Assembly: GCF_007671725.1 (NCBI RefSeq)
Contig: NZ_VCNM01000003.1
Location: 1 to 64,000 of the forward strand
Length of the DNA stretch: 64,000 nt
Reading direction: 5' to 3'
DNA from: Halorubrum depositum
GTDB lineage: Archaea; Halobacteriota; Halobacteria; Halobacteriales; Haloferacaceae
The notes below the pieces were generated by a model that saw only the letters and a list, made by a program, of their open reading frames with translations, searched no databases and was not told the origin of the DNA. Below are positions 27,983-58,420 of the stretch, in pieces; within the stretch, counting starts at the first letter, position 1; each line of letters starts with the position of its first letter. The position numbers were made by a program, and so were the translations under genes.

Positions 27983-28000
27983 TTATCTTACCCATAATAA
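27983..28000 (+). promoter_or_regulatory. Glycan-locus promoter element 1
   Basis: TTATCTTACCCATAATAA fits the shared 18-bp consensus YTAYC-N6-CSATAATAA. It precedes the aminotransferase-dehydrogenase operon, but at 142 bp from the ATG, farther than other copies, so a leader of about 115 nt is implied. That leader contains a 30-codon ORF from ATG 28054 whose TGA overlaps the aminotransferase ATG. Confidence 0.5.
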
Positions 28001-28142
28001 TTGCCGCATAGGACTTGGAACCCGACAGCGGGAGCGGGACCGCACGCGAAGCTATGAGAGGATCACACCTATTCAACGACGGATGCGAGCGACCGTCCGA
28101 CGACGGCATGAGCGCGACGAACGACAGCGACGGGAGGCGTCA

Positions 28143-29285
28143 ATGAGCGGAGACGTCAACATCGCCGATCCGATCCTGGGCGACGAAGAGGTCTCGCGCA
28201 TCGAGTCGGTCGTCGACTCCGGGATGATCGCCGACGGTCCCGAAGTTCGCGAGTTCGAAGCCGAGTTCGCGGACTACTGCGACGCCGACGAGGCCGTCGC
28301 GACGTCGAACGGCACCACGGCGCTCCACACGGCGCTCGAAGCGGTCGGTGTCGGGCCCGGTGACACGGTGCTCACCACGCCGTTCTCGTTCGTCGCGACG
28401 GCGAACGCCATTCGGTTCGCGGGCGCCACGCCGGTGTTCGCGGACGTCGACCCCGAGACGTTCAACCTCGACCCCGAACGCGTCGAGGCGAAGCTCGAAG
28501 CGCTCGATGGACGCGTCGACGCGATGGTCGTCGTCCACCTCTACGGGCTCCCGGCACCGATGGACCGGTTGCGCGAACTCGCGGACGAGTACGACGTGGC
28601 CATCGTCGAAGACGCCGCACAGGCTCACGGGGCGACGTACCACGACAGCCCGGTCGGGTCGCTCGGCGACGCCGCGTGTTTCTCGTTTTACCCGACGAAG
28701 AACATGACCACGGGCGAGGGCGGCATGGTCGTCACCGACGACCAACGGGTCGCCGACGCCGCGGCGAGTTTCATCAATCACGGCCGCGAGACCGACGGGT
28801 ATCGACACGTCTCGCTCGGACACAATTTCCGAATGACGAGCATCGCCGCCGCGATGGGGCGGGCGCAACTCGAACGGCTGCCCGGGTTCGTCGAGCGCCG
28901 CCGTGAGAACGCGGCGAGACTCGATGAACTGCTCGCGGAGACGAACGCCGTCACACCGGTGAGTCCCGACGGCTGTGGGCACTCCTACCACCAGTACACG
29001 ATCCGCGTCGGCAACCGCGATTCGGTCGCCGAGCGGCTCGACGAACACGGGATCGGAAGCGGAGTGTACTACCCGCGATGTATCCACGACCAACCCGCAT
29101 ATGACGCACTCGACGTGAGTGCCCCGGCCGCGGAGCGCGTCGCTGATCAGGCGCTGTCACTCCCAGTGCATCCGGCGCTCGACGAGGAGGAAGTCGAACG
29201 AGTCGGGAGCGTCCTCCGCGACGAGGTGACCGTCGAGCCGCCGGCCGACCCCGCGCGGACGACCGTGGAGGTGTCCAATGACTGA
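28143..29285 (+). CDS. DegT/DnrJ/EryC1-family nucleotide-sugar aminotransferase (WbpE-like)
   Basis: The 380-residue PLP enzyme would install an amino group on a keto-sugar nucleotide. Key segments are ATSNGTTALHTAL (phosphate-binding), the EDAAQAHGA motif, and SFYPTKNMTTGEGGM with the PLP-binding Lys. ATG 28143 gives the family N-terminus NIADPILGDEEVSRI. The frame is open to 28083, and a separate 30-codon ORF (28054-28146) overlaps the start as ATGA. Its stop overlaps the next ATG by 8 bp. Pairing with a Gfo/Idh/MocA dehydrogenase is that of WbpE-WbpB in 2,3-diamino-uronate synthesis; this pathway assignment is inferred. Confidence 0.88.
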   Translation: MSGDVNIADPILGDEEVSRIESVVDSGMIADGPEVREFEAEFADYCDADEAVATSNGTTALHTALEAVGVGPGDTVLTTPFSFVATANAIRFAGATPVFADVDPETFNLDPERVEAKLEALDGRVDAMVVVHLYGLPAPMDRLRELADEYDVAIVEDAAQAHGATYHDSPVGSLGDAACFSFYPTKNMTTGEGGMVVTDDQRVADAAASFINHGRETDGYRHVSLGHNFRMTSIAAAMGRAQLERLPGFVERRRENAARLDELLAETNAVTPVSPDGCGHSYHQYTIRVGNRDSVAERLDEHGIGSGVYYPRCIHDQPAYDALDVSAPAAERVADQALSLPVHPALDEEEVERVGSVLRDEVTVEPPADPARTTVEVSND

Positions 29286-30267
29286 CGACACCGTCAGCGC
29301 GGGCGTCGTCGGCGTCGGCAGCATGGGGCAGAACCACGCCCGCGTCTACGACGAACTCGAGGAGACGGACCTCGTCGGCGTCTTCGACGTGGACGACGAC
29401 AACGCGGCGGACGTCGCCGCGGAGTACGGGACGACTTCGCGGTCGATGGCCGATCTCCTCGACGTCGTCGACGTCGTCTCCGTCGCCGTGCCGACCCAGT
29501 TCCACTACGAGAACGCGAAGCGCGCCCTCGAAGCCGACGTGGACGTGCTCGTGGAGAAACCGTTCGTCGCCGACCCCGAGAAGGGCCAAGAGCTCATCGA
29601 CATCGCGGACGAGCGCGACCTCACGTTACAGGTCGGCCACATCGAACGGTTCAACCCCGCGGTCCAGACGCTTCGTGACCTCGTGGACGAGTTGAACATC
29701 TACGCGGTGTCGACCGAACGGGTCGGGCCGCCGATAGACCGCGCCATCGACGACTCGGTCATCATGGATCTGATGATCCACGACCTCGACATCGTGCTCG
29801 ACATCGTCGACGGCGACGTCGACTCGTACAGTTCGGTCGGCACCCCCGACTGCCGCTACGCCAACGCAACCCTCCGATTCGACTCCGGCGTGACTGCGTC
29901 TCTCACCACGAGCCGCGTCACCCAAGAGAAGGTCCGCGGACTCACCATCTCAGCGGAGGAGTGCCGCGTCAAGGTCGACTACATCGACCAGAGCATCGAA
30001 ATCCACCGCTCGTCGGTGCCGGCGCACATCGACGACGACTCCTTCGTGCGCCACCGACACGAGAACTTCGTCGAGACGCTCACCGTCGAACAGGTCGAAC
30101 CCCTGAAGAGCGAACTCAGCTCGTTCGCGCACGCCGCCGAGACGGGAGAAGACCCCGTCGTGGACGGAAAGCAGGGGCTCCGCGTGCTGAAATTGACGAA
30201 ATCGCTGGACAGCGCGGCGCAGTCGGGATCGGCCGATAGCCCGAACATTTCTGCCGACGCGGACTGA
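29278..30267 (+). CDS. Gfo/Idh/MocA-family sugar-nucleotide dehydrogenase (WbpB-like)
   Basis: The 329-residue NAD(P)-dependent oxidoreductase begins VSAGVVGVGSMGQNHARVY, a Rossmann dinucleotide site. It has the family EKPF motif (VDVLVEKPFVADP) with the catalytic Lys, then HIERFNPAVQTL and MDLMIHDLDIVLDIV with the catalytic His/Asp. It overlaps the aminotransferase by 8 bp and is surely co-translated. WbpB oxidises C3 of UDP-GlcNAcA for transamination by WbpE, so this pair fits the middle of the route to UDP-GlcNAc(3NAc)A. Confidence 0.87.
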   Translation: MTDDTVSAGVVGVGSMGQNHARVYDELEETDLVGVFDVDDDNAADVAAEYGTTSRSMADLLDVVDVVSVAVPTQFHYENAKRALEADVDVLVEKPFVADPEKGQELIDIADERDLTLQVGHIERFNPAVQTLRDLVDELNIYAVSTERVGPPIDRAIDDSVIMDLMIHDLDIVLDIVDGDVDSYSSVGTPDCRYANATLRFDSGVTASLTTSRVTQEKVRGLTISAEECRVKVDYIDQSIEIHRSSVPAHIDDDSFVRHRHENFVETLTVEQVEPLKSELSSFAHAAETGEDPVVDGKQGLRVLKLTKSLDSAAQSGSADSPNISADAD

Positions 30268-30529
30268 CCGTCGCCGATCGACGGCGTGAACCGACGTAAC
30301 CGGCTGCAACAATCCGAATTAAGCCGATTTTCAACCCGACGATGTCTGACGGTTGTTGAAAACCCAACAATGCCCCCGTCTTGCGATTTGGGGCGTTGAA
30401 ACAGTGTGAAACAGTCGTGGAAACGGAAATGAAATACCTTAGAGCCGGGCGTAAACAGACGAAAACATTTGGAAAATCCGGAACTATCTCACCGGTTTAT
30501 TTGGTCCCTCTGTGATGGTACGAGCGACG
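30268..30529. promoter_or_regulatory. AT-rich intergenic control region with inverted repeats
   Basis: This 262-bp gap between the dehydrogenase and a membrane HTH gene is unusually AT-rich. It holds TTGTTG-AAAACC-CAACAA (30353-30370), an 8-bp inverted pair TTTTCAAC/GTTGAAAA (30328-30335 and 30355-30362), and a direct repeat TGAAACAG (near 30396-30413). A TTTATTT TATA element (30496-30502) sits about 30 bp before ATG 30530. The arrangement suggests an operator region for the HTH protein or a small RNA. Confidence 0.4.
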
Positions 30530-31126
30530 ATGACTGCCCAAGTAGACGTCCCCGAAGACTCGCTGCTCGAACCGCAAGCGGAGGAAGAGACGACAGATCT
30601 CGACGCTGACGAGGTGTACCATCTACTCCAGAACGAGCGCCGCCGGAAGGTCCTCGAGTATCTGCGCGGCCGCGAGGGCCCGGTCCAGATGCGCGACATC
30701 GCGGAGCAGGTCGCCGCGTGGGAGCACGACACGACGGTGCAGGCGCTGATGTCCGACCAGCGGCAGCGCGTGTACATCGCGCTGTACCAGGCGCACCTCC
30801 CGAAACTCGACGAAGAGGGGGTCATCGACTACAACCAGAGCCGAGGGATCGTCGAGAAGAACCCCCCCGCCCAGGAGCTCATCGCCCACCTCGAACAGCC
30901 GGGAGACGACGACGAGTCCGACGCCGACGAGTCGGAGCAGGCGTGGGGGAAGTACTACCTCGGCGTGTCGGGCGTGAGCGCGCTCCTGATCGGTGCGTCG
31001 GGACTGGGTCTCCCCGCGATCAGTTCCGTTCCGCACCTGTTCGTCGCCCTCGCGGTAATGAGCGTGTACACCGCGCTCTCGTTCTGGCAAGTGCTCGACG
31101 AGTCCGGCGACGCGGACGAAGAATAA
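30530..31126 (+). CDS. DUF7344-type HTH protein with two C-terminal membrane helices
   Basis: The 198-residue protein (start ATG 30530; in-frame ATG 30515 is possible but closer to the TATA element) begins MTAQVDVPEDSLLEPQAEEE. The HTH domain runs from YHLLQNERRRKVLEYLRGRE to YIALYQAHLPKLDEEGVIDY, the signature layout of DUF7344. An acidic linker leads to two hydrophobic helices (YYLGVSGVSALLIGASGLG and LFVALAVMSVYTALSFW). It probably binds DNA while held at the membrane. It stands between the WbpB-like gene and the calcium-domain regulator and may control the surface-glycan genes. Confidence 0.78.
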   Translation: MTAQVDVPEDSLLEPQAEEETTDLDADEVYHLLQNERRRKVLEYLRGREGPVQMRDIAEQVAAWEHDTTVQALMSDQRQRVYIALYQAHLPKLDEEGVIDYNQSRGIVEKNPPAQELIAHLEQPGDDDESDADESEQAWGKYYLGVSGVSALLIGASGLGLPAISSVPHLFVALAVMSVYTALSFWQVLDESGDADEE

Positions 31127-31429
31127 GGCTTTCCGCACCAGACGCCCGGCGACGCGCCGACTGCTCCGATATAAACGCCGCTTGCGGTGTGAGATGAGTA
31201 TCTGAGCGTTGTAGAGCGGTGAGTACCCAGTACGACCACCGGAGGTCGTCGAATCTGTCCTCCGTGAGATTAATACGGGAGAGCCTGATTCAGGGATATA
31301 CGAGTTAGATCTGATGAACATAACTGTGCGTTCGCAGCCGAGTCGAGAAGGCGGAACGCTCGACTGCGGAGTGACTCACCACCACTATCCGAGTGACCAC
31401 ACCCGCACAGAGCCGCGTTCCTCGTGACG
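31127..31429. other. Intergenic region, no gene seen
   Basis: About 300 bp between two membrane regulator genes. An AT-rich GAGATTAATACGGG (31265-31278) and GGGATATACGAGTTAG (31296-31311) may be promoter parts. No open frame with coding character, no strong repeat and no copy of the 18-bp glycan-locus element was seen. Confidence 0.35.
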
Positions 31430-32755
31430 ATGTCTCAGACCCGAGCCTTGTTCGTGATGGCCGCGTTCGTCTTCCTCGCGGCCATCGCCCCTGCGTCCGT
31501 CACCGCGACGCCGGTCGCACAGCAGAACGGGACGATCGTCCAAGCCGAGTTCACCGACCCGGTGCCGGTCGAAGGCGCCAACGGGTCCGCGTACCTCTGG
31601 GAGTCGGAACCCAACGGCCTGCGGGTGACGGTCCCCCCCTCTAACGGGTCGGAGCTCTACGAGGTCTGCGTGCAGAACGAGACCGGTGCGCAGATCGTCT
31701 GCGACAACCAGAGAGCCGCGTCAGGGGACCGAGCGGTGACGATGGACCTCGCCGACCTCTCGGCGTTTCGGGAGACGCAGAACGTCACCGTCGTCCTCTG
31801 GCCCGGCTCTCCGGGCGAGTCCGAGCCGATCGGCTCCGACACGATCAGCATCAGGGTCGTCGAGAAGGACGGCGACATCGACGGCGACAAACTCTCGAAT
31901 GCGGAGGAGCTGTCGCACAACACCTCGATGCTCCTGATGGACACCGACAGGGACAGCCTCAGCGACGGGGCCGAGGTGAACAACTACGGCACGTCGCCGA
32001 CGTCGGCCGACACCGACGGCGACAACCTGTCGGACGCGGCCGAGCTGTCGAGATCGCTCGACCCGACGGACCCGGACACCGATGGCGACGGGATTCCCGA
32101 CGGCGTCGAGGTGGAACGCGGGTTGGCGCCGAAGGACCCGAACGCCGATACGGACGGTGACGGCCTGTCAGACGCCTACGAGTACGAACACGGTAGCGAC
32201 CCGACGAAAGTGGACACCGACGGCGACGGACTGAACGACGGGTTGGAGGCGCGGCTGGGGACGGGTCCGGACGACGGCCGTACCACGCCGATGCTCCTGT
32301 TCGCGGGCCTGACGCTCTTCGGTATCTCCGTGCTCGCGGCGCGCTGGGCCTGGCCCTCGTGGCGTCACCGGGTCGACCGGTACGTTCCCTCGTGGCTTGT
32401 GGCGGGACGTGCGTCCACCGACGACGGGGCGTCCGCCGACGACGAGGCGTCCGCCGAACGCGATACAGACGAGCCAGCGGTCGCACCGGGGTTCGACCGC
32501 GCGGAACGTCAGGAGTCGTCGCAACCGGTACTGACTGACGAGGACAGAGTCCTCCGGATCCTCCGCGAGAACGACGGGTGGGTGTATCAGAGCGTCATCG
32601 TCGAGGAGACCAGTTGGTCCAAGTCGAAGGTGAGCCGACTGCTCTCCGAGATGGCCGACGATGGGGTGATCGAGAAGGTCAGCGTTGGGCGACAGAACGT
32701 CGTGGCGGAGGAGGGGTCGATGCCCGACGGGTTCGGGTCGCCGTTCGAGGAGTGA
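31430..32755 (+). CDS. Membrane-anchored winged-helix regulator with extracellular calcium-binding repeats
   Basis: The 441-residue protein has a signal peptide (residues 1-28, ending near ATPVAQQ) and a beta-rich outer domain to about 140. Residues about 146-278 hold five or six thrombospondin type-3-like DxDxDG loops (DTDGDNLSDAAEL, DTDGDGIPDGVEV, DTDGDGLSDAYEY and others), which bind Ca2+ in known proteins. One membrane helix (MLLFAGLTLFGISVLAARWA, about 286-307) follows, then a Ser/Asp linker. A cytosolic winged helix (DRVLRILRENDGWVYQSVIV to DGVIEKVSVGRQNVV, about 370-428) closes the chain and is of the same type as at 22791-23339. It looks like a one-component signalling protein linking outside Ca2+ or surface state to transcription. 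ATG 31430 is preferred over GTG 31424. Confidence 0.82.
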   Translation: MSQTRALFVMAAFVFLAAIAPASVTATPVAQQNGTIVQAEFTDPVPVEGANGSAYLWESEPNGLRVTVPPSNGSELYEVCVQNETGAQIVCDNQRAASGDRAVTMDLADLSAFRETQNVTVVLWPGSPGESEPIGSDTISIRVVEKDGDIDGDKLSNAEELSHNTSMLLMDTDRDSLSDGAEVNNYGTSPTSADTDGDNLSDAAELSRSLDPTDPDTDGDGIPDGVEVERGLAPKDPNADTDGDGLSDAYEYEHGSDPTKVDTDGDGLNDGLEARLGTGPDDGRTTPMLLFAGLTLFGISVLAARWAWPSWRHRVDRYVPSWLVAGRASTDDGASADDEASAERDTDEPAVAPGFDRAERQESSQPVLTDEDRVLRILRENDGWVYQSVIVEETSWSKSKVSRLLSEMADDGVIEKVSVGRQNVVAEEGSMPDGFGSPFEE

Positions 32756-32820: not shown

Positions 32821-33735
32821 TCAGGCGTCGAGTCGCGTCCGGACACCTTTGATCACGTTGAAACAGAGTCCCGGTAGCTGACGCGGTGACGGCGTCGTTC
32901 CGTCGCGGAGGAACGAGACACCGGAGCCGAATCGGCCCTCTCGTAGATACAGCGACGCGAGGGCGTAGTGGTGGGTTCCGGTCACGTCGTATCCCTCGGT
33001 CTCCAGTTCGACGACGTCGTCGGCGAACGTCCGGAGAAAGTGTCTGTTCGCCTCCCGGACGGCACCGGCGCTCGGACCGCCCGACGGGTAGCGCCGTAAG
33101 AGCGGTTCGTCGACGTAAGCCAACTTCCCCTGCTTGAGCACGCGGATGAGGAACTCGGTGTCCTGATACCGGTCGAACGATTCGTCGAACCCGTCGATGC
33201 GGTCCACGACGTCCGACTCGACGATGAGCGTCGACCCGGCGCTGGTGTGGAGGTTCTCCATGAGCACATCCTTTACGAGCTCTTCACCGCCCTCTGCGCC
33301 CTCTCTCGAGCCGTGTCCTCCGAAGAACGACTTGAGGCGTTCCCACCCGGGAGCCGCGTCCGCATCGTCGACGACGGTCGTTCCGCAGTAGGCGGCGACC
33401 CACTCGTCGGACCGCCGTTCTAGCGTCTCGACCTGCTGTTCGAGTTTCGTTGGTGCCCACACGTCGTCCGAGTCGAGGAGCGCGATATAATCGCCAGTCG
33501 CGGCTTCGATGCCGGTGTTTCGGGCGGCGCTACCGCCTCGATTCGTCTCGTGTTCGAGGTAGGTTAGACGCGAGTCGTCGTATTCGTTCACGACGGACGC
33601 CGTGTCGTCGTCGGAGGCGTCGTCGACGACGACGACCTCGACGTCCTCCAACGTCTGGTCGAGCGCGCTGTCGATGGACCGCGGCAGGACGTCCGCTCGG
33701 TTGTACGTGGGGATAATGACGCTCACTGTAGGCAT
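32821..33735 (-). CDS. Family 2 glycosyltransferase
   Basis: The 304-residue GT-A enzyme starts MPTVSVIIPTYNRADVLPRS; ATG 33735 is preferred over the open frame to 33759. Motifs are VEVVVVDDASDDDT (nucleotide binding), NRGGSAARNTGIEAATGDYIALLDSDDVW with the Asp-x-Asp metal site, and a later GFDESFDRYQDTEFLIRVL. It would add a sugar from a nucleotide donor to a lipid-linked glycan on the cytoplasmic face. It is divergent from the MoxR-like gene, and the spacer holds two copies of the 18-bp glycan-locus promoter element. Confidence 0.9.
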   Translation of the reverse strand: MPTVSVIIPTYNRADVLPRSIDSALDQTLEDVEVVVVDDASDDDTASVVNEYDDSRLTYLEHETNRGGSAARNTGIEAATGDYIALLDSDDVWAPTKLEQQVETLERRSDEWVAAYCGTTVVDDADAAPGWERLKSFFGGHGSREGAEGGEELVKDVLMENLHTSAGSTLIVESDVVDRIDGFDESFDRYQDTEFLIRVLKQGKLAYVDEPLLRRYPSGGPSAGAVREANRHFLRTFADDVVELETEGYDVTGTHHYALASLYLREGRFGSGVSFLRDGTTPSPRQLPGLCFNVIKGVRTRLDA

Positions 33736-33769
33736 CGAGAATCGAGTGAGACTCGTCACGGGGAGTGCT

Positions 33770-33787
33770 TTATTATCGCTCCGGTAA
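33770..33787 (-). promoter_or_regulatory. Glycan-locus promoter element 2
   Basis: Read on the minus strand: TTACCGGAGCGATAATAA, an exact fit to the YTAYC-N6-CSATAATAA consensus, 34 bp from ATG 33735. Its first 15 bases (plus 33773-33787) form the imperfect palindrome TTATCG-CTC-CGGTAA. Confidence 0.65.
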
Positions 33788-33807: not shown

Positions 33808-33825
33808 TTATCGCTCCGATAATAA
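33808..33825 (+). promoter_or_regulatory. Glycan-locus promoter element 3
   Basis: TTATCGCTCCGATAATAA, 26 bp from ATG 33852 of the MoxR-like gene. Bases 33808-33822 are a perfect palindrome with a 3-bp centre (TTATCG-CTC-CGATAA). Elements 2 and 3 face away from each other 35 bp apart. Confidence 0.7.
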
Positions 33826-34931: not shown

Positions 34932-34971
34932 TTACCGGTCCGATAAGTCGGGGCTACCAGGTCGATAATAA
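34932..34971 (+). promoter_or_regulatory. Glycan-locus promoter element 4 (double)
   Basis: Two related sites are in tandem: TTACCGGTCCGATAAG (34932-34947) and CTACCAGGTCGATAATAA (34954-34971). The second ends 30 bp before ATG 35002 and fits the consensus with C at position 1. The first keeps the palindromic TTACCG-GTC-CGATAA core but lacks the final ATAATAA, so it may be an operator only. Confidence 0.6.
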
Positions 34972-36102: not shown

Positions 36103-38553
36103 GTGAGTCGGAACATGGTCACGGCGTTCCTCTCCGTCGTGGGCGGGCGTATCTTCATCGTGCTGTCGTCGGTGGTGCTCACCCCGATTCTCATCACGAC
36201 CCTCGGGTTCGAACTCTACGGGCGCTACAGCACCCTCACGGCGGTGTTCGGTATCTCGACCATTCTGATGAGTTCGGGCATCAACAGCGGCGCCCGCAAG
36301 TTCCTCTCCGAGGAGCGCTCGATTCGGAACTGGAAGACGCACGTCTTCGGCTACTACTTCCGCCTCGGGGCGCTCCTCGCGGTGCTGACTGCGCTGGCGT
36401 TCGCCGGCGCGGCGCGCTTCGGTCTCGTCACCCAGCACCTCGGTGAGCAGTACGTCGTCGGCTTCTACGGCCTGGCGGGACTGACTATCGCGACGCAGTT
36501 CCGCGAATTCTCTCGCCGGTCGCTGATGGGCCTCAAGCAGGAACACCTCTCGGAACCGCTGCGCGTGTTCAACAAGGTCGGTTCGCGGATAGCGCTCATC
36601 GGAATCGCCTTCCTCGGCTTCGAGATCGGAGGGATGATGGTCGGCCTCATCGTCGTCAACGGCCTCGTCGCCCTGCTCGCGCTGTGGTGGCTTCGAACCA
36701 ACATCTCGCTCCGCGGTATCGTCACCAGGTCGCCGGGCGGGTTCCCGACGAGGGAGCTGTTCAGCTTCAACCACCTCTCGGTGGTTTACATGCTGTTTCT
36801 CACGTCGATGTACCACGTCGACGTGTTGATGCTCGCCTCGGTCGTCACCGAGACGCAGGTCGGCTACTACAAGTCCGCGCTGGTCATCACTCAGTTCCTC
36901 TGGGTGATCCCGCGGTCCATTCAGTCGATGCTCATCCAGTCCGTCTCGGACCTCTGGGCGAAGGGCCGCATCGACCAGATAAACGAGATCGCGTCGCGAG
37001 TCACCCGGTACGGGATGCTCGTCGTCGTGCTGTTGTCGATCGGGCTCGGGGCGCTCGCGAAGGACTTCGTCCCGCTGTATCTCGGTGACGGGTCGATGCC
37101 GGTCGTCACGCCGCTCCTCATTCTCCTCCCCGGGACGATCGGATTCGCCATCGTTAGACCGATCCTCGCCATCAGTCACGCGAAGGCGGACATGAAACCG
37201 CTCATCGCGGCGACCGGGGCCGCAGCGCTTCTGAACCTCGGCCTCAACGCGGTTCTCATCCCCCGATACGGAATTCTCGGGGCGGCGGTCGCGACGACCG
37301 TCGGCTACTCGTCGTTGCCGGTGTTCAACCTCCTCAGCGCCCGTCACCTCGGATTTAAACCGTTCTCGGACGCGCGAGTCGGTCGGGTGTTGGCGACGGG
37401 AGCCATCGCGATCGTCCCCATCTACCTCCTCTCGGTGACGCTCGAGAACAGCCTCGTCGCGTTGGCGGTCGTCCCCCCGATCGGGTTCCTCGTCTTCGTG
37501 ACGACGGCGTTCCTGGTCGGCGCCGTCGGGGTCGACGAGGTGCTGGACGTGATGGGGTCGCTCCCGGGCCCCATAGGGTCGCGCGCATCCGCCGCCCTCG
37601 CGAGCGACGGCGGCCCCGGCGGGGTCGGGAGGCGCTCGCGGAGGACCACGTCGTGGACCGACCGACACGCGGACACACTTCAACGCGCCCTCCTCGTCCT
37701 CGGTATCCTCCTCTCGATTTCCGGGGTCGTGCTCGCCGCGGGCGTGCCCGGCGTCGACGTGGGACCGTCCATCGACGGCGACTCGCCGATCCCGGATGTG
37801 AACAACACCGAACCGGTCACCGACGCGCCGTCGCCGACGAACGAGACGCAGACCACGGACTCGCCGTCGAACACCTCCGACGGTTCGACGGATCAAAGCG
37901 GTGACTCATCGACGGACGATCCGCCAACCACGACGGAGAACAGCAGTGCGACAGGGAACGCCACGACGGAGAACAGCAGTGCAACCGAGAACAGCACCAC
38001 GACTGAGGACAGCAGTTCGACTGAGGACAGCAGTTCGACTGAGGACAGCAGTTCGACTGAGGACAGCAGTTCGACCGAGGACAGCAGTTCGACTGAGGAC
38101 AGCAGTTCGACCGAGGACAGTTCGACTGAAAACAGCACGACTGAAGACAGCAATACGACCGAAAACAGCACGACTGAAAATAGCACCACGACCGAGAACA
38201 CTACGACGGAAAATAGTACGACTGAAAACACTACGACCGAGAACAGCACGACTGAAAACACTACGACCGAGAACAGCACGACTGAAAACACTACGACCGA
38301 GAACAGCACGACTGAAAACACCACCATGACCGAGAACACTACGACCGAGAACAGCACGACTGAAAACACCACCATGACCGAGAACACTACCACAACGTTG
38401 TCATTGACGACGATGGCAACCACAACCGAGAGCGTCACGGCAACGTATAGCGACATGTCGGCGTTCCTGACGGGGCGTCCCACGACGGCGAGGAACTGGC
38501 TTCTCTCGTCGTGGCCCCCCACCAGCGGGACGCCGTGGTTTCAGTCGAGTTAG
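36103..38553 (+). CDS. MOP-family polysaccharide flippase (Wzx-like) with mucin-like C-terminal tail
   Basis: Residues 1-480 form a 12-14 helix Wzx/MATE-type exporter (VVGGRIFIVLSSVVLTPILI at the start; later GYYKSALVITQFLWVIPRSI and YGILGAAVATTVGYSSLPVF), expected to flip lipid-linked oligosaccharides. An Arg-rich linker and an extra membrane helix (ALLVLGILLSISGVVLAAG, about 526-545) follow. Then comes an extracytoplasmic Ser/Thr/Glu/Asn tail of about 250 residues with 6-residue TEDSSS repeats and 10-residue TTENTTTENS repeats. The tail is full of Asn-x-Ser/Thr sequons, so it is likely glycosylated like a mucin. Such a tail is unusual for flippases. The start is GTG 36103 or ATG 36115. It probably shares the upstream lipoprotein promoter. 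Confidence 0.83.
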   Translation: MSRNMVTAFLSVVGGRIFIVLSSVVLTPILITTLGFELYGRYSTLTAVFGISTILMSSGINSGARKFLSEERSIRNWKTHVFGYYFRLGALLAVLTALAFAGAARFGLVTQHLGEQYVVGFYGLAGLTIATQFREFSRRSLMGLKQEHLSEPLRVFNKVGSRIALIGIAFLGFEIGGMMVGLIVVNGLVALLALWWLRTNISLRGIVTRSPGGFPTRELFSFNHLSVVYMLFLTSMYHVDVLMLASVVTETQVGYYKSALVITQFLWVIPRSIQSMLIQSVSDLWAKGRIDQINEIASRVTRYGMLVVVLLSIGLGALAKDFVPLYLGDGSMPVVTPLLILLPGTIGFAIVRPILAISHAKADMKPLIAATGAAALLNLGLNAVLIPRYGILGAAVATTVGYSSLPVFNLLSARHLGFKPFSDARVGRVLATGAIAIVPIYLLSVTLENSLVALAVVPPIGFLVFVTTAFLVGAVGVDEVLDVMGSLPGPIGSRASAALASDGGPGGVGRRSRRTTSWTDRHADTLQRALLVLGILLSISGVVLAAGVPGVDVGPSIDGDSPIPDVNNTEPVTDAPSPTNETQTTDSPSNTSDGSTDQSGDSSTDDPPTTTENSSATGNATTENSSATENSTTTEDSSSTEDSSSTEDSSSTEDSSSTEDSSSTEDSSSTEDSSTENSTTEDSNTTENSTTENSTTTENTTTENSTTENTTTENSTTENTTTENSTTENTTTENSTTENTTMTENTTTENSTTENTTMTENTTTTLSLTTMATTTESVTATYSDMSAFLTGRPTTARNWLLSSWPPTSGTPWFQSS
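38002..38390 (+). repeat. In-frame tandem repeats encoding the mucin-like tail
   Basis: Six copies of an 18-bp unit (ACTGAGGACAGCAGTTCG, with single-base variants) run from 38002 to 38109. Three identical 30-bp units (ACGACTGAAAACACTACGAC followed by CGAGAACAGC) run from 38218 to 38307, with diverged copies on both sides. All units are multiples of 3, so copy-number change would alter tail length without shifting frame. Confidence 0.85.
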
Positions 38554-40044: not shown

Positions 40045-40335
40045 GATTCCGAGTGCCGTTTGCTCGGGTGGACGGGTTATTATTCCTCAGATAAAGACGG
40101 GGTGACAGTTGCAATCGAACGTGAAAACCGGCAGAGGAGAGTCGAACGGACAGCATAGATCGTGCAATGTGCTAACGTGGATGACAGTGCACGGAGCTAC
40201 GGCCGATCGATTCACTCCGAAGAGAGCTAGAACGAGTCGGGTGCCCCGCTGAACCGGTTCGCTGTGGCTCGCAAGGGGCCTCTATCAACGACCGAGTCTT
40301 CACGGGGGCCTCGCCCTAATCACGTCGACGCAGAC
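40045..40335. other. Intergenic region upstream of the propeller gene
   Basis: This 291-bp gap holds the propeller-gene promoter (element at 40077-40094) near its left end. The rest, down to the end of the GT4 gene, has no open frame with coding character and lower GC than its surroundings. No repeats or RNA gene were recognised. Confidence 0.4.
40077..40094 (-). promoter_or_regulatory. Glycan-locus promoter element 5
   Basis: Read on the minus strand: TTATCTGAGGAATAATAA, 32 bp before ATG 40044. It fits the consensus except for a G in place of C before the AATAATAA block. Confidence 0.55.
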
Positions 40336-41582: not shown

Positions 41583-41600
41583 TTCTTATCGGGTAGGTAA
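41583..41600 (-). promoter_or_regulatory. Glycan-locus promoter element 6
   Basis: Read on the minus strand: TTACCTACCCGATAAGAA, 26 bp before ATG 41556. Bases 41586-41600 form TTATCG-GGT-AGGTAA, one mismatch from a palindrome. Confidence 0.55.
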
Positions 41601-48855: not shown

Positions 48856-48873
48856 TTACTGTCCCGATAATAA
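48856..48873 (+). promoter_or_regulatory. Glycan-locus promoter element 9
   Basis: TTACTGTCCCGATAATAA lies 64 bp before ATG 48938 and 189 bp before the acetyltransferase ATG. It probably drives the whole operon 48938-53343. Confidence 0.6.
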
Positions 48874-48937: not shown

Positions 48938-49066
48938 ATGCGTACCAGAATCAAATTCGCCGCGTTGCTCGTCGCACTGCTCGTACTCGCTACCACCCTC
49001 CGCTCGACCGACGACGGGTCGAGTCCGAACGGGACCGAGGCGACCGTCGACTCGACAGGGCCATGA
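48938..49066 (+). CDS. 42-aa secreted or membrane small protein, coupled to the acetyltransferase
   Basis: The frame reads MRTRIKFAALLVALLVLATT, then a polar Ser/Asp tail ending STGP. It has a basic N-terminus and one hydrophobic helix, like a signal anchor. Its TGA overlaps the ATG of the acetyltransferase gene (ATGA). With promoter element 9 upstream it would be the first cistron of the operon. I know no homologue. It may be a real small membrane protein or a coupling ORF; the coherent signal-like sequence favours the former. Confidence 0.5.
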   Translation: MRTRIKFAALLVALLVLATTLRSTDDGSSPNGTEATVDSTGP

Positions 49067-49644
49067 GCTCGTACGTCACGGGAACCGGGTGTGAGATCGA
49101 CGACGACGTTACCATCGGCTATCCCGCCGGTGATGACCCCGAGCGGACGGTCATCGGGGACGACGCGACGATTCGCTCCGGAACCGTCATCTACAGCGAC
49201 GTCGAGATCGGTGACGGATTCGCCACGGGCCACGACGCGCTCGTGCGGGAGGACACCCGACTCGGCGACGACGTGGTCGTCGGCACCAAGACCGTCGTCG
49301 ACGGGACCTCAGTCGTCGGCTCGAACGTCAGCCTCCAGAGCCGCGTCTACGTGCCCACCGACACCCGCATCGGCAACGACGTCTTCGTCGGCCCCGGGTC
49401 GGTGCTGACGAACGACCCGTATCCGGTCCGCCAGGACATCGAGATGGTCGGCCCGACGCTCGAGGACGGCGTCTCCGTCGGCGGCAACGCGACCGTGCTC
49501 CCCGACGTGACCGTCGGCGAGGACGCGTTCGTCGCCGCCGGGGCGGTCGTCACCGAAGACGTACCGCCGGAGACGCTGGCCGTCGGAACGCCCGCTGAAC
49601 ACCGTCGGCTGCCGCCGAAACTGCAAGCAGAGAACTCGATATGA
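49063..49644 (+). CDS. Left-handed beta-helix acyltransferase (WbpD-like)
   Basis: The 193-residue protein consists of hexapeptide repeats of a trimeric left-handed beta-helix (for example IGDDATIRSGTVIYSDVEIG, VVGSNVSLQSRVYVPTD, IGNDVFVGPGSVLTNDPYPV). It ends VAAGAVVTEDVPPETLAVGTPAE, typical of sugar-nucleotide N-acetyltransferases. WbpD acetylates the 3-amino group of UDP-GlcNAc(3NH2)A, and the aminotransferase/dehydrogenase pair needed for that is at 28143-30267. It overlaps both neighbours by 4 bp, so it belongs to a tight operon with two UDP-sugar dehydrogenases. Confidence 0.88.
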   Translation: MSSYVTGTGCEIDDDVTIGYPAGDDPERTVIGDDATIRSGTVIYSDVEIGDGFATGHDALVREDTRLGDDVVVGTKTVVDGTSVVGSNVSLQSRVYVPTDTRIGNDVFVGPGSVLTNDPYPVRQDIEMVGPTLEDGVSVGGNATVLPDVTVGEDAFVAAGAVVTEDVPPETLAVGTPAEHRRLPPKLQAENSI

Positions 49645-51029
49645 GCTCACAAACAGCCCTGACTAACCTCTACGGTTCGACTCGCTCCGAAGACGAACAG
49701 ATCGCTGCACTCACCTCCGGTGACGTCCCGGTCGGCGTCTACGGACTCGGCAAGATGGGCCTCCCGCTCGCCTCGGTCTACGCCGACACCACCGGCAACG
49801 TGACCGGTGCGGACATCGACGGCGACGTCGTCCGCGAGATCAACGGCGGACGAAGCCACATCGTCGGTGAGCCCGGTCTCGGGGACCTCGTGGAGGACCT
49901 CGTCGCGGACGGCGCGCTCACCGCGAGCACCGAACCCCGCGAAGTCGCCGAAGCGGCGGCCGTCCACGTGGTTATCGTCCCGACGCTCGTCGACGAGGAC
50001 GACCGCCCGGACCTCTCGGTCATCGAGGCGGTGACCGACGCCATCGGCAGGGGGCTCGACGAGGGCGACCTCGTCATCTTCGAGTCGACGCTTCCGCCGC
50101 GTTCCTGTCGCGACGTCCTCCTCCCCCAGCTCGAGGCCGAAAGCGGCCTCTCGCTGGGCGAGTTCGGCCTCGCGTTCTGTCCCGAGCGGACCTCCTCCGG
50201 GCGCGCGCTCGAGGACATCCGCGGCGCGTACCCGAAAGTCGTCGGCGGTGCCGACGCCGAGAGCGCCCGCGCCGCGGCGCTCATCTACGACCAGATCTCC
50301 TCGAACGAGGTCATCACCGTCTCGGACACGACGACGGCGGAAGCGGTCAAGGTGTTCGAAGGCGTCTACCGCGACGTCAACATCGCCCTCGCGAACGAGC
50401 TCGCGACCCACGCCGACGAGTTCGGGATCGACGTCACCGAGGCCATCGACGTGGCCAACACCCAGCCCTTCTGTGAGATCCACACGCCTGGCGCCGGCGT
50501 CGGCGGCCACTGCATCCCCTACTATCCGCAGTTCCTGATCAAGCAGTTCGAGACCGAGGCGCCCCTCATGCGGACCGCTCGCGACGTGAACGACGAGATG
50601 CCGCACGTCACCGCACAGACGGCGCTCGACGAGCTGCGGGCGCGCGGCGTCGACCCGGAAGACGCCTCCGTCCTCGTCCTCGGACTGACCTACCGGGCCG
50701 GCGTCGAGGAGATTCGCAAGACGCCGGCGCTCCCCGTCATCGAGCATCTCGACGACGCGGGCGCTGGCGTGTTCGCGAGCGACCCGATTCTCGACGACAC
50801 CGCCGTCTTCGAGGACGCGGGCGCGACCATCGTCGGTGACGTGAACGGCCACGACCTGTCGGTGGACGCCGTCGTCCTCGTGACCGCTCACGAGTCGTTC
50901 GACTACCTCGACGTCCCGGAGCTCGGCGTCGACTCCCGCCCGGTCGTGTTCGTCGACGGGCGACAGGCCGCGACCGAGTACCGCGACGACGAGGACGTCG
51001 CCTACCGAGGAATCGGTCTCCATGACTGA
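49641..51029 (+). CDS. UDP-HexNAc 6-dehydrogenase family protein (WecC-like)
   Basis: The 462-residue enzyme begins after a 30-residue lead-in with VGVYGLGKMGLPLASVYAD (NAD site). It carries VIVPTLVDEDDRPDLS, ESTLPPRSCRDVLLPQL, FCPERTSSGRAL and the catalytic-Cys motif GVGGHCIPYYP. These enzymes oxidise the C6 hydroxyl of UDP-GlcNAc or UDP-ManNAc to the uronic acid. The lead-in is longer than in the paralogue downstream. It overlaps the acetyltransferase by 4 bp and the next dehydrogenase by 8 bp. Two different dehydrogenases in tandem suggest two uronic acids or a heteromer. Confidence 0.88.
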   Translation: MSSQTALTNLYGSTRSEDEQIAALTSGDVPVGVYGLGKMGLPLASVYADTTGNVTGADIDGDVVREINGGRSHIVGEPGLGDLVEDLVADGALTASTEPREVAEAAAVHVVIVPTLVDEDDRPDLSVIEAVTDAIGRGLDEGDLVIFESTLPPRSCRDVLLPQLEAESGLSLGEFGLAFCPERTSSGRALEDIRGAYPKVVGGADAESARAAALIYDQISSNEVITVSDTTTAEAVKVFEGVYRDVNIALANELATHADEFGIDVTEAIDVANTQPFCEIHTPGAGVGGHCIPYYPQFLIKQFETEAPLMRTARDVNDEMPHVTAQTALDELRARGVDPEDASVLVLGLTYRAGVEEIRKTPALPVIEHLDDAGAGVFASDPILDDTAVFEDAGATIVGDVNGHDLSVDAVVLVTAHESFDYLDVPELGVDSRPVVFVDGRQAATEYRDDEDVAYRGIGLHD

Positions 51030-52308
51030 GACCGTCTGCGTCGTCGGGCTGGGCTACGTCGGCCTGCCGTTGGCCATCGAGTTCGACGACGCCGGGAAGT
51101 CGGTCATCGGCTACGACGTGGACCCCGACAAGGTCGCCGATCTCGACGCCGGGATCGACCCGACCGGGGACGTCACCGACGAGGGCGTCGCGAGCTCCGA
51201 CGTGACGTTCACGACCGCCGAGTCGCGGATCTGGGAGGCGGACTACGTCATCGTGACGGTGCCGACGCCGGTCGACAGCATGGAGAACCCGAACCTTCAG
51301 TACGTGGAGTCGGCCGCCGAGACCATCGGCGGACACGTCTCGCCCGGAACGACCGTCGTCCTCGAGTCGACGGTCTACCCCGGCGCGACGGAGTCCGTCC
51401 TCGCCCCGGCCCTCGAGTCCGAGTCGGAGTTCACCGTCGGCGAGGACGTCTTCGTCGGCTACTCGCCGGAGCGCGCCTCGCCCGGTGACACCGGACGGAG
51501 CGTCAGCGACGTGGTCAAGGTCGTCGGAGCGAACAGCGAGGAGGTCCGCGAGGACCTCGCCGACCTCTACGGGAGCATCGTGGACGCCGGTATCCATCGG
51601 GCGCCGGACATCGAGACCGCGGAGGCGTCGAAGGTCATCGAGAACGTCCAGCGGGACATGAACATCGCCCTGATCAACGAGCTGGCCATCGCCTGCGACC
51701 ACATGGGGCTGACGACGAAAGACGTCCTCGAGGCGTCCGGGACCAAGTGGAACTTCCACGACGAGTACTCGCCCGGGTTCGTCGGCGGGCACTGCATCCC
51801 CGTCGACCCGTTCTACCTCACCTATCAGTCGAAGCGCGACGGGTTCTCGCCGAAACTCGTGTTGCAGGCGCGCGAGATCAACGAGTACGTCCCCGTCCAC
51901 GCCGCCCGCAAGACGGTCAAGACGATCAACGACGCCGGTCGGGTCCTGCAGGACACGCGCCTGTTAGTCCTGGGTCTCGCCTACAAACCCGGCGTCGGCG
52001 ACATCCGCAGTTCCGAAGTCGGATCGATGATAGAGAAGCTAGACGAGTTCGACATCGACTGCGTGGGGTACGACCCGCACGCGAACCCGGAGGAGTCGCG
52101 GGACGTCTTCGACATCGAGGTGACCGAATCGGTCGACCTCGCGGCCTACGACGGAGTCGTCGTCGCGACGGCCCACGAGGAGTTCTCCGGCTACGAACTC
52201 GAGTCGATGGCGTCGGCGCTCGATTCCGACCCGGTCATGGTCGACGTGGCGGACGTGTTCGACGCCGACGAGGCCGCCGAGCACGGGTTCCACTACGCAC
52301 AGCTGTGA
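51022..52308 (+). CDS. UDP-GlcNAc 6-dehydrogenase family protein (WbpA/TviB-like)
   Basis: The 428-residue protein starts MTETVCVVGLGYVGLPLAIE and has YVIVTVPTPVDSMENPNLQY, VLESTVYPGATESV, VGYSPERASPGDTGRS and the catalytic GFVGGHCIPVDPFYLTYQS. The last motif and the following LQAREINEYVP resemble WbpA/TviB, which make UDP-GlcNAcA. It is paralogous to the preceding gene and overlaps it by 8 bp. With the WbpB-, WbpE- and WbpD-like genes it completes a predicted UDP-GlcNAc(3NAc)A pathway. Confidence 0.9.
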   Translation: MTETVCVVGLGYVGLPLAIEFDDAGKSVIGYDVDPDKVADLDAGIDPTGDVTDEGVASSDVTFTTAESRIWEADYVIVTVPTPVDSMENPNLQYVESAAETIGGHVSPGTTVVLESTVYPGATESVLAPALESESEFTVGEDVFVGYSPERASPGDTGRSVSDVVKVVGANSEEVREDLADLYGSIVDAGIHRAPDIETAEASKVIENVQRDMNIALINELAIACDHMGLTTKDVLEASGTKWNFHDEYSPGFVGGHCIPVDPFYLTYQSKRDGFSPKLVLQAREINEYVPVHAARKTVKTINDAGRVLQDTRLLVLGLAYKPGVGDIRSSEVGSMIEKLDEFDIDCVGYDPHANPEESRDVFDIEVTESVDLAAYDGVVVATAHEEFSGYELESMASALDSDPVMVDVADVFDADEAAEHGFHYAQL

Positions 52309-52317
52309 GTGATTGAC

Positions 52318-53343
52318 ATGGATGTCCTCATCACGATCCAGCATCCCGCGCACGTCCACTTCTTCAAGCACGCCATCGAGGAGCTGGAGGAACTCGGCCA
52401 CGAGGTCTACGTCCGCGCGCTCGACAAGGACGTCGCGTTGTCGCTCCTGAACGGATACGACATCGACTACGAGGTCGTCGGGTCTCGCGGTGGGTCGCTG
52501 GCCGGTACGGCGGTGTCGACGCTCGCGATCGAGTACCGCCTGTACCGCGACGCGAGAGCGATCGGCCCCGACGTGATGACGGCGATCGGCGGTATCGAGG
52601 CCGCACACGTCGCGAAGCTGATCGACGCGGACAGCGTCATCTTCACCGACACCGAGCACGCGACGCTGTCGAATCGGTTGACGTTCCCCTTCGCGGACGA
52701 GATCGCGACGCCCGACTGTTATCTCGACGACGCCGGCCCCAACCAGTACCGATACCCGAGTTACCACGAGCTCGCCTACCTCCACCCCGACCGGTTCGAC
52801 CCGGATCCGTCCGTGCTCGACGAACTCCCCGTCGACGCCGACGACACCTACGCAGTCCTTCGGTTGGTCAGTTGGGGTGCGGCGCACGACGTCGGCGACG
52901 AGGGACTCGCCGACCTCACGGAACTGGTCGATCGCCTCGAGGAGACGGGGGCGGACATCCTCGTCTCGGCCGAGGACGACGCACTCCCCCCGGGGCTCGA
53001 CGGGTACGGTATCGACATCGACCCGAACCTCATCCATCACGTTCTCGCGTACGCCGATCTCTTCGTCGGAGAGAGCGGGACGATGGCGTCCGAGAGTGCC
53101 GTCCTCGGCACGCCGTCGGTGTACGTCCACAGTGCGAACCCCGGCCTCATGCGTGACCTCTCGGCGCACGACCTGCTGTTCGGGTATCACGGTGAGCGTC
53201 GGAACGAACGCGCCGCGAGTCGGGCAGTCGACATCCTCGAGTCGCCGGAGATTGACTGGGAGCAGCGCCGCCGGGACCTCCTCGACCAGAAGACCGACGC
53301 GACGGACGTCGTCGTCGATCGAGTGCTCTCGGCCGCCAAGTAG
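52318..53343 (+). CDS. DUF354-family GT-B-like protein
   Basis: The 341-residue protein starts MDVLITIQHPAHVHFFKHAI and contains EVVGSRGGSLAGTAVSTL, SVIFTDTEHATLSNRLTF and GESGTMASESAVLGTPSVYVHS. That layout resembles a WecB/MurG-type GT-B fold. DUF354 proteins occur widely in archaeal surface-sugar loci and are thought to be glycosyltransferases or epimerases, but the reaction is unproven. ATG 52318 is preferred; an in-frame GTG lies at 52309. It is the last gene of the 48938-53343 operon. Confidence 0.82.
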   Translation: MDVLITIQHPAHVHFFKHAIEELEELGHEVYVRALDKDVALSLLNGYDIDYEVVGSRGGSLAGTAVSTLAIEYRLYRDARAIGPDVMTAIGGIEAAHVAKLIDADSVIFTDTEHATLSNRLTFPFADEIATPDCYLDDAGPNQYRYPSYHELAYLHPDRFDPDPSVLDELPVDADDTYAVLRLVSWGAAHDVGDEGLADLTELVDRLEETGADILVSAEDDALPPGLDGYGIDIDPNLIHHVLAYADLFVGESGTMASESAVLGTPSVYVHSANPGLMRDLSAHDLLFGYHGERRNERAASRAVDILESPEIDWEQRRRDLLDQKTDATDVVVDRVLSAAK

Positions 53344-53684
53344 CCTCGAATCCGCCGTCCGCCGGACGTGATGCGTCACCGGTCGAACGACCGAACGACG
53401 TTCGGAACGGCTCGTCGCGATCGGACGCGCGTCGCCGGCGGCGTCGTCTCTGTTCTCGCGTTCGTCGTCCCGGGCGTGAGCGAGTCGTCCCGTGTGAGTC
53501 CGGGCGGGTCGTCGGCGGACCGGGTCCCCACCGGGAGTCGAGGTCGGGGAGTACCCGTCCGGCCCGTCGCGCTGAGCGTGCGGCCACGCACAGAGACCCC
53601 GATCCGGCTATACGGTCGAATTTCGACGGGAGAGCACATTTATCGGCTACATAATAAGGGGCCTATGGCGCCCGTACTCTCCTG
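53344..53684. other. Intergenic region with promoter element 10
   Basis: A 341-bp gap. A 105-codon frame (53368-53685) overlaps the next ATG but contains the promoter element and has poor coding character. The right end carries the 18-bp glycan-locus element listed separately. Nothing else was seen. Confidence 0.4.
53640..53657 (+). promoter_or_regulatory. Glycan-locus promoter element 10
   Basis: TTATCGGCTACATAATAA, 27 bp before ATG 53685. The left half-site TTATCG is perfect, and the ATAATAA end is conserved. Confidence 0.6.
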
Positions 53685-54773
53685 ATGACGCTACCAGATA
53701 CAGCTCGACGTTCCGGTCGGGAGCGGGACGTGACCGTGATGGTGACGGGTGCCGGCACGCCCGGTGCTTTGGGCATCATCAAGGCCGTCCGCCGGACCGA
53801 TGCGTTCGATCCTCACATCGTCGGCGTCGAAACGATCCCCGACGCGAGCGGATTCCCCCTCGTTGACACCGCGGAGACCGTCTCCGCGGGCGACGACTTC
53901 ATCCCGGACGTGATTGACGTCGCGCGGCGTGAGGACGTCGACGTGGTGTTCCCGCTCCAGCCGACGGACCTCCGGTCGCTCTCCGAGGCGAAGCCCAGAT
54001 TCGAGAGCGAGGGTATCGAGGTGATGGTCTCGGATCCCGGAACGTTGTCCACCGCGACGGACACCGGGCGACTGTACGACCATCTCGTTCGACATGGCCA
54101 TCACATCGTACCGGAGTTCTACCGCGTCTCGACCTGCGACGAGTTCGTCGACGCGGTTCGCGCGCTCGGATACCCCGATCGGCGCGTCTGTTTCAAGCGC
54201 TCCGACGGCGACGAGGTACGCGTCCTCGACTCGGAGGCGGACCGCTCCAACGTCCTGCTGGATACGCAGCCGAACAACACGGTGAACACGCTGGACGGCG
54301 TCCTCCCGGTTTTCGAGGAGACCGAACCGTTTCCGGATCTCATCGTGACGGAGTATCTCCCGGGCGACGAGTACAGCGTCGACGTCGTCGCCCGCGAAGA
54401 CGACGTTCCGGTTACGGTCTCTCGTTCTCACGACGAAATCGATGCCGGACGCTCGTACACGGGGACGATCGAAGAGGCGCCGGAACTCATCGAAAGCGCG
54501 CGCCAGATCTGCGCGCTCCTCGACGTAGAGTACAACGCCAACGTCCGGTTTAAGTACGCCGCCGACGGCACGCCGAAGCTCGTCGGGGTCAACCCGTACC
54601 TCTCCGAGTCCGTCACCGCGTGTGTCGGTGCAGGCGCGAACATCCCCTCACAGAGCGTGCAGCACGCACTCGGCTGGGACCTCCCGGAGGTCACCGTCGA
54701 TTGGGGGACGCACGTCACCCACGACTGGCAGGAGATCGTCTTCCGCCCCGAGAAGAGCCCGACAACAATCTAA
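53685..54773 (+). CDS. ATP-grasp ligase (carbamoyl-phosphate-synthase-like)
   Basis: The 362-residue protein starts with a pre-ATP-grasp Rossmann domain (VTVMVTGAGTPGALGIIKAV). The ATP-grasp core follows: GYPDRRVCFKRSDGDEVRVL, DLIVTEYLPGDEYSVDVV and VRFKYAADGTPKLVGVNPYL, with the acidic/Asn metal-binding end. Such enzymes join a carboxylate to an amine or thiol, or make carbamoyl-type intermediates. In surface-glycan loci they often decorate uronic acids with amino acids or other groups. That role fits the uronate pathway here but is inferred. Confidence 0.83.
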   Translation: MTLPDTARRSGRERDVTVMVTGAGTPGALGIIKAVRRTDAFDPHIVGVETIPDASGFPLVDTAETVSAGDDFIPDVIDVARREDVDVVFPLQPTDLRSLSEAKPRFESEGIEVMVSDPGTLSTATDTGRLYDHLVRHGHHIVPEFYRVSTCDEFVDAVRALGYPDRRVCFKRSDGDEVRVLDSEADRSNVLLDTQPNNTVNTLDGVLPVFEETEPFPDLIVTEYLPGDEYSVDVVAREDDVPVTVSRSHDEIDAGRSYTGTIEEAPELIESARQICALLDVEYNANVRFKYAADGTPKLVGVNPYLSESVTACVGAGANIPSQSVQHALGWDLPEVTVDWGTHVTHDWQEIVFRPEKSPTTI

Positions 54774-54779
54774 CGACCC

Positions 54780-54805
54780 GCCGAGTCGGCATTCTCTGAC
54801 TCGGC
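54780..54805 (+). other. Intercistronic hairpin
   Basis: GCCGAGTC (54780-54787) pairs with GACTCGGC (54798-54805) across a 10-nt loop, between the ATP-grasp gene and the polytopic membrane protein. No poly-T tract follows, so it is more likely an mRNA-processing or stability hairpin than a terminator. Confidence 0.45.
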
Positions 54806-54821
54806 ACTCACACCTCGATAC

Positions 54822-56789: not shown

Positions 56790-57162
56790 TCGACCGCGGC
56801 CGCTCTTCTCGGATCTCGCGTCCCCGCCGCGCCGACGGACGGTCGTCCTGCGGAACGCGAAGCGCGGATCGGTCAGTGCGTCTCGACGGACGGTCGAACC
56901 GCCGTCGGCGACGATGCCACGCGGTGCGTTCCTCGCGTTGCGGCGACGCCCCGCGAGGGACGGTCGACCGTCTACTCGGGGTCGGCGTGTTCTTCCGCGG
57001 GGTTTCCGGACGGGTCGAGGAGAATCCGCCCGCGACGGTCGGCACGGAACACGCGTCAACCGCTGAGCGCCTGCGGCTGGAAACGGTGCGAAAACACGGG
57101 AGTTGCCTCCGCGAAGCGGCTCTCGTCCGACTGCTCGGGTTCGTTGGAGTCCGCGGCCGCGT
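56790..57162. other. Convergent intergenic region, no gene seen
   Basis: This 373-bp gap lies between the ends of two convergent genes. GC content is high, and open frames on both strands have the Arg/Ser/Pro-rich look of non-coding GC-rich DNA. The words GACGGACGGTCG and GACGGTCG recur several times (56835-56970), but not as a clean repeat. Confidence 0.4.
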
Positions 57163-58053: not shown

Positions 58054-58078
58054 ACATACTACCCGGGCGTGAACGACA

Positions 58079-58413: not shown

Positions 58414-58420
58414 CGCTGAT

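Follow-up and report, generated by a model that had tools for sequence, protein, structure and literature searches.

The gene at positions 31424 to 32755 of the analysed stretch of Halorubrum depositum DNA (64,000 nucleotides, hereafter the window) probably encodes a kinase-free, membrane-anchored transcription regulator of the surface-glycan locus that surrounds it, acting with a neighbouring DUF7344 protein and controlling its own expression. The architecture of this protein, its linkage to partner and glycan genes and the DNA elements of the locus are supported by profile matches, a structural model and sequence comparison, and they lead us to propose how the state of the cell envelope might reach the promoters of a glycan pathway.

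Architecture and fold of the TSP3-DUF7343 protein

The open reading frame is real, starting at GTG 31424 (443 aa) or ATG 31430 (441 aa) and ending at 32755 on the + strand. Its parts are listed below, with residues counted from GTG 31424; the Pfam coordinates quoted for DUF7343 are counted from ATG 31430.

31424..32755, + strand: TSP3-DUF7343 membrane regulator (ORF, Pfam, orthologues, AlphaFold model)
31433..31510, + strand: signal peptide, aa 4 to about 29, hydrophobic core aa 8-26 (hydropathy, model helix 4-20; cleavage site tentative)
31529..31870, + strand: outer Ig/CARDB-like beta-sandwich, aa 36-149 (model, fold search)
31874..32275, + strand: six TSP3 calcium repeats, aa 151-284, spacing 22-24 aa (Pfam, motif scan)
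32282..32374, + strand: single membrane helix, aa 287-317, basic residues at its C-terminal (predicted inner) side (hydropathy, model)
32537..32710, + strand: predicted cytosolic winged helix DUF7343, aa 372-429 (Pfam, model, AntR fold match)

The original prediction had placed a signal peptide, an outer beta domain, thrombospondin type-3 (TSP3) loops, one membrane helix and a C-terminal winged helix in a single chain, and this layout is borne out by Pfam and by AlphaFold. The profile matches are strong for both DUF7343 (PF24034; aa 367-426, E 5e-25, 87.5 bits against a curated cut-off of 27.6) and TSP3_bac (PF18884; E 1.6e-19, 69.8 bits against a cut-off of 25), and no kinase domain was found by Pfam in the protein. 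The structure prediction that had been proposed as a check yields a model with a sandwich, a TSP3 rod, a membrane helix and a winged helix (mean pLDDT 84.9), in which all structured parts except the signal peptide are confident (block means of 95-98 for the TSP3 region and 95-97 for the winged helix) and a disordered linker of some 45-50 residues (aa 325-367) separates the membrane helix from the winged helix. The latter is MarR/IclR/ArsR-like; it has a winged-helix fold closest to that of AntR (Z 10.0, rmsd 1.9, 62 residues).

The outer domain is less sharply placed. In a Foldseek search the PF1109 CARDB structure comes second (E 8e-4, TM 0.54 by target length), with many Ig-like folds scoring alike, and Pfam gives no CARDB profile match for this domain. 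The Ig-like domain also dominates the full-length fold search, which barely probes the TSP3 part, so that the latter is identified by sequence. Many homologues end in a conserved tail (SPFDE, SPFEE or SPLEE) after the winged helix; the corresponding tail of the window protein spans aa 433-443.

Relatives and distribution

Full-length orthologues at 54-60% identity occur in Haloferax, where H. larsenii and H. elongans carry a syntenic copy, and no orthologue at an E-value of 1e-25 or better was found in 51 other genomes of the window's own genus. Given this absence from congeneric genomes in spite of its presence in Haloferax, the locus would seem to be patchy and may perhaps have been acquired laterally. 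A search for the same architecture elsewhere, likewise put forward by the original prediction, returned at least 67 proteins in the Halobacteriales, and among the loci taken for comparison the architecture spans 27 genera and 8 families.

The DUF7343 domain itself is present in 116 of 120 genomes of the phylum, and the host genome encodes DUF7343 paralogues with other ectodomains (DUF7345). Because of this phylum-wide occurrence and of these paralogues, the class of membrane-anchored archaeal winged-helix regulators is to be regarded as already known, and the novelty resides in the present ectodomain and its genetic setting. Our literature search returned no paper naming DUF7343 and no earlier description of this architecture. 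Two variants were also observed among the relatives. At L052 (7974-9544, genome G112, devoid of the TTAYC box described below), the TSP3-DUF7343 relative is split into two ORFs of 231 and 292 aa, possibly by a frameshift, and at L047, L048 and L054 (g11) the glycan locus that encodes the TSP3 protein also contains, a few genes away, the gene of a DUF7343 protein without TSP3 repeats.

The DUF7344 partner and the surface-glycan locus

The main neighbours of the gene in the window are the following.

30512..31126, + strand: DUF7344 partner, N-terminal winged helix and C-terminal two-helix membrane hairpin, next gene upstream (Pfam, neighbourhood comparison)
28083..30267, + strand: DegT aminotransferase and Gfo/Idh oxidoreductase (annotation)
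32821..33759, - strand: family 2 glycosyltransferase (GT2), conserved downstream neighbour (annotation, neighbourhood comparison)
36103..38553, + strand: Wzx-like polysaccharide flippase (annotation)
49063..63591, no strand assigned: rest of the glycan locus, with a hexapeptide acetyltransferase, two UDP-sugar dehydrogenases, DUF354, ATP-grasp, GlmS, asparagine-synthase-like and nucleotidyltransferase genes (annotation)

The gene had been described as bordering a surface-glycan locus; it is in fact flanked by glycan genes on either side and sits inside the locus. To judge by known WbpA/B/E/D-type pathways, from which the assignment is drawn, these genes appear to form a pathway leading to an acetamido-uronic acid glycan. 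The DUF7344 (PF24035) match of the upstream partner reaches 105.9 bits against a cut-off of 27.8, and the association recurs well beyond the window. Among 71 TSP3-bearing loci, which were picked by similarity to the window protein and whose proportions are thus not random-sample rates, DUF7344 lies within two genes in 42 (immediately upstream and on the same strand in 29) and two or more glycan genes lie within six genes in 37, against one case of DUF7344 proximity and none of glycan genes in a background of 20 random 16-kb regions. Both features coincide in 32 loci from 12 genera and 6 families, a stronger link to glycan loci than had been claimed. The glycan and partner label is clustered on the tree, yet it requires several gains or losses, and TSP3-bearing members outside glycan loci and without a DUF7344 partner also exist (L087, L093, L103, L113 and L121).

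The window holds four DUF7343 or DUF7344 genes within 10 kb. They include a second DUF7344 membrane winged-helix protein (27272-27889, - strand), about 18% identical to the partner at 30512 and kept in some nine of the compared loci, and a small protein that has DUF7343 at its C-terminus and perhaps a hydrophobic segment (22785-23336, + strand). A MoxR-type AAA ATPase gene (33765-34901, + strand), preceded by a TTAYC box, is conserved in the locus as well.

A tandem repeat upstream of the pair

When nine syntenic loci were compared, the DUF7344 gene proved to be preceded by a direct repeat, GAAACAGTnnGAAACAGT, which in the window takes the following form.

30398..30415, + strand: tandem direct repeat GAAACAGTgtGAAACAGT, candidate operator of the pair (motif comparison, genome scan)

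The underlying pattern, GMAACRGTnnGMAACRGT, has a period of 10 bp and, with up to one mismatch allowed, a single site in the 3.18-Mb genome, at 30398-30415. When a matrix trained on the syntenic group was scanned over independent genomes, high scores were obtained for 9 of 44 DUF7344 upstream regions versus 5 of 711 other genes (Fisher 5e-9), and the signal was specific to the 10-bp period. At L105 and L125, where the TSP3-DUF7343 gene has no nearby DUF7344, the repeat precedes the TSP3-DUF7343 gene itself, and this gives a weak hint that DUF7343 might be the binder of the repeat. The repeat was also considered as a broad regulon motif and rejected, since no tested genome contains more than one or two sites.

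A promoter element of the glycan genes

The glycan-gene promoters of the locus share a second element, TTAYC-N5-SATAATAA (the TTAYC box), often placed 25-35 nt before the start codon, which is the expected position of a TATA box. The window contains nine copies with up to one mismatch, versus 0.00 expected, all located by motif scan.

27983..28000, + strand: TTAYC box before the DegT/Gfo-Idh genes
33770..33787, - strand: TTAYC box before the GT2 gene
33808..33825, + strand: TTAYC box before the MoxR gene
34954..34971, + strand: TTAYC box, one mismatch, before ORF 34984-35976
40077..40094, - strand: TTAYC box, one mismatch, before ORF 38569-40044 (PQQ-type beta-propeller)
41583..41600, - strand: TTAYC box, one mismatch, before the GT4 gene
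48856..48873, + strand: TTAYC box, one mismatch, upstream of the acetyltransferase/UDP-sugar dehydrogenase genes
53640..53657, + strand: TTAYC box before the ATP-grasp gene
58079..58096, - strand: TTAYC box, one mismatch, before ORF 57163-58053 (Thioredoxin_4)

The 3.18-Mb genome has only five exact boxes, four of them in the window, and most genomes of the genus have none, on which grounds we rejected the box as a general promoter element. Across 36 genomes, about 58 of 79 exact boxes fall within 30 kb of a TSP3-DUF7343 gene; in the genus Haloferax (g28), the eight tested genomes with the syntenic locus carry 2 to 6 copies and the seven without it carry none. Within the close group, a box with up to one mismatch precedes 40 of 67 glycan-locus genes, as compared with 9 of 57 other genes and 0 of 29 DUF7344 or TSP3-DUF7343 genes. 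In other clades the element reads TTAGC-N5-TATARTAA and is found at GlmS and UDP-sugar dehydrogenase promoters. A search for box-bearing genomes without the TSP3 protein, meant to single out the reader of the box, favoured no candidate: the boxes of G495 lie at a glycan locus adjoining a DUF7343-DUF7344 pair of the C1 type, and G006, whose boxed glycan genes have no pair within about 10 kb, speaks against the preferred reading. The sporadic boxes of G104 and G147 fall inside genes and look like chance occurrences. The fifth exact box of the host genome (C1:975326-975343; L136, about 5194) has no clear downstream gene and lies 1.8 kb away from a paralogous TSP3-DUF7343 gene that is accompanied by a DUF7344 of its own, and a similar box in G495 (L205, 7167) stands beside the same neighbour, with a full glycan locus adjoining.

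The protein that reads the box could be DUF7344 or an HTH_10/Bat-type regulator of the locus instead of the TSP3-DUF7343 protein. The window encodes two candidate readers of the latter type, a PAS/GAF/BAT/HTH_10 sensor (23464-26736, + strand) and a BAT/HTH_10 protein (44546-45229, + strand), and a relative of the gene at 44546 is itself preceded by the box in H. larsenii and H. elongans. The upstream activator site of Bat sits next to the TATA element, and the TTAYC box likewise adjoins one. It is thus a serious, if less probable, alternative that a Bat/HTH_10-type regulator reads the glycan box and that the membrane pair controls only its own expression or some other target. The pair's own promoter has no TTAYC box, an absence that does not discriminate between the two readings. 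On the other hand, among neighbourhoods of 15-17 kb, those that combine glycan genes with the pair far outnumber those that combine them with the HTH_10 gene, which speaks against this alternative.

The calcium repeats as rod or sensor

Five to six DxDxDG loops had been predicted for the ectodomain; the TSP3 loops are indeed present, but they number exactly six and only three are literal DxDxDG. They begin at aa 151, 173, 196, 218, 242 and 264, and all six match DxDxDx[LIV]x[DN]xxE, a motif never found more than once in any of 20,000 shuffles of the ectodomain. The D1, D3, D5 and E12 ligands are intact in all six repeats, and every calcium ligand is kept in 397 of the 401 repeats (99%) of 67 homologues, as delimited by a repeat finder that ignored D1, D3 and D5. 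This conservation makes Ca2+ binding likely. A profile search of solved structures retrieved Ca2+-binding OmpA-TSP3, COMP, Bap and EF-hand chains (PDB 5wtl, 3fby, 7c7r).

The role of the bound calcium is most likely structural. Repeat number ranges from 2 to 12 among relatives, some members having a single repeat, and even inside the glycan loci of a single family it varies among relatives from 4 to 9: L043-L045 and L056 have 4 repeats, the window protein and most of those from Haloferax have 6, and L047, L048 and L054 have 8-9. A spacer tolerates such variation more easily than a dose sensor would, and the repeats therefore look like a Ca2+-stabilised stalk. The original prediction that outside Ca2+ is coupled directly to transcription without a kinase thus stands as regards a kinase-free chain with an ectodomain of Ca2+-binding type, but the coupling to Ca2+ itself agrees poorly with a repeat number of 2 to 12. 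The intact ligands and the similarity to solved Ca2+-binding chains would also suit a sensor of Ca2+ or ionic strength, in which low Ca2+ would leave the TSP3 array unfolded, high Ca2+ would let it fold, and the transition would drive the winged helix. We consider this unlikely in view of the unequal repeat numbers; moreover, nothing in the sequence singles out Ca2+ as the signal. Brines usually contain millimolar Ca2+, and the sites may stay loaded there.

Topology and conservation

The outer sandwich holds two nearly invariant cysteines (Cys82 and Cys93) and four of the seven sequons, a fifth beginning at aa 35. Exactly two ectodomain cysteines are present in 64 of 67 homologues, and sequons are 2.5 times more frequent in the ectodomains than expected by shuffling (484 versus 196), with no enrichment in the cytosolic parts (33 versus 39). 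The cysteine pair and the asymmetry of the sequons fit an outside ectodomain with an inside winged helix, as had been predicted, although the net charge rises across the membrane helix (positive-inside trend) in only 51 of the 67. By its predicted layout, which places the sensor and DNA-binding sides in one chain across the membrane with no kinase, the protein is thus supported as a membrane one-component regulator.

Invariant columns, 17 in all, are found only in the TSP3 ligands and in the recognition helix and wing of the winged helix, and the recognition helix (WSKSKVSRLL) and wing (GR.N) rank among the most conserved parts of 62 homologues, a pattern that would be consistent with DNA binding by DUF7343. 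It is rather improbable that regulated intramembrane or linker proteolysis releases the winged helix as a soluble factor: the disordered linker between membrane and winged helix might well be easy to cut, but no protease is found among the annotated conserved neighbours, and archaeal regulators of the ArnR type are membrane-bound (PMC6396743). It is very unlikely that the protein acts at the surface or in adhesion, with a winged helix that no longer binds DNA and is kept for assembly alone. TSP3 and CARDB-like modules are indeed common in surface proteins, but the conservation of the recognition helix and wing and the dedicated tandem repeat preceding the unit speak against such a role.

Relation to known systems

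The closest known parallels are with ArnR and ArnR1 of Sulfolobus acidocaldarius, two related membrane-bound one-component regulators of surface structures (PMC6396743), which resemble the present case as archaeal membrane one-component regulators formed by two related membrane proteins. ArnR consists of an N-terminal HTH, a HAMP and a sensory domain, and two C-terminal membrane helices; it acts at inverted repeats (TCGAC-N5-GTCGA) of the archaellin promoter, and its targets are the archaellum and pili, not glycan genes (PMC6396743). The DUF7344 partner also combines an N-terminal HTH with two C-terminal membrane helices, with no HAMP according to Pfam. The TSP3 protein, on the contrary, has a C-terminal winged helix and falls outside the ArnR family, and no TSP3 rod has been described for ArnR.

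The bacterial ToxR, CadC and TcpP regulators similarly place a domain outside and a winged helix inside, joined in one chain by a single membrane helix, often with a second membrane protein encoded next door (cf. PMC5430869). Their winged helix is N-terminal and of the OmpR type, in a type II orientation and with no signal peptide, whereas the protein studied here has an N-terminal signal peptide and a C-terminal winged helix, a reversed polarity that sets it apart from the ToxR/CadC family. By analogy, it would work like ArnR and ToxR/CadC while being a member of neither; by profile, it is a member of DUF7343.

The DUF7345-DUF7343 proteins of the same genome share the order of signal peptide, ectodomain, membrane helix, linker and C-terminal DUF7343. 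What sets the present protein apart from them is its ectodomain, an Ig-like sandwich mounted on TSP3 repeats, and the link of its gene to DUF7344 and the glycan locus. With the TSP3 rods of OmpA-family proteins, COMP and Bap the likeness lies in the repeated calcium-binding loop; we know of no membrane-tethered DNA-binding domain on any of these rods. CsmR was examined as a precedent and set aside, being a small winged-helix protein unrelated to this architecture.

A proposed envelope-to-gene circuit

Our preferred reading of the TSP3-DUF7343 protein as a regulator of its glycan locus suggests the following sequence of events. The beta-sandwich would be carried outside the cell on the TSP3 rod with its intact Ca2+ sites, while the membrane helix and the disordered linker would hold the winged helix in the cytosol. 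Loaded with Ca2+, the rod would most likely place the sandwich at the height of the S-layer, where it may contact the S-layer or surface glycan at a fixed distance. A change at the envelope might then affect how the winged helix, by itself or together with DUF7344, oligomerises or is placed at the membrane. The pair would bind the tandem repeat, leading to autoregulation, and would set, directly or indirectly, the output of the boxed glycan promoters. S-layer sensing is a plausible function.

Little is settled about the means by which archaea perceive the condition of their S-layer and glycan coat. The locus analysed here offers an uncharacterised family whose architecture is conserved and whose partner recurs, together with a candidate operator that has one genomic site and a promoter element specific to the locus. 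It also provides a working hypothesis for two nameless Pfam domains, DUF7343 and DUF7344. More tentatively, and with a good deal less confidence than we attach to regulation of the locus as such, one may envisage a conserved two-protein envelope-to-gene circuit of haloarchaea in which a Ca2+-stiffened rod of variable length gauges the S-layer or glycan coat and, with DUF7344, drives a dedicated promoter class (TTAYC-N5-SATAATAA, or TTAGC-type in other clades) that is all but confined to the surface-glycan locus. If true, such a circuit would be an archaeal, kinase-free counterpart of the bacterial envelope-stress systems, endowed with a regulon code of its own.
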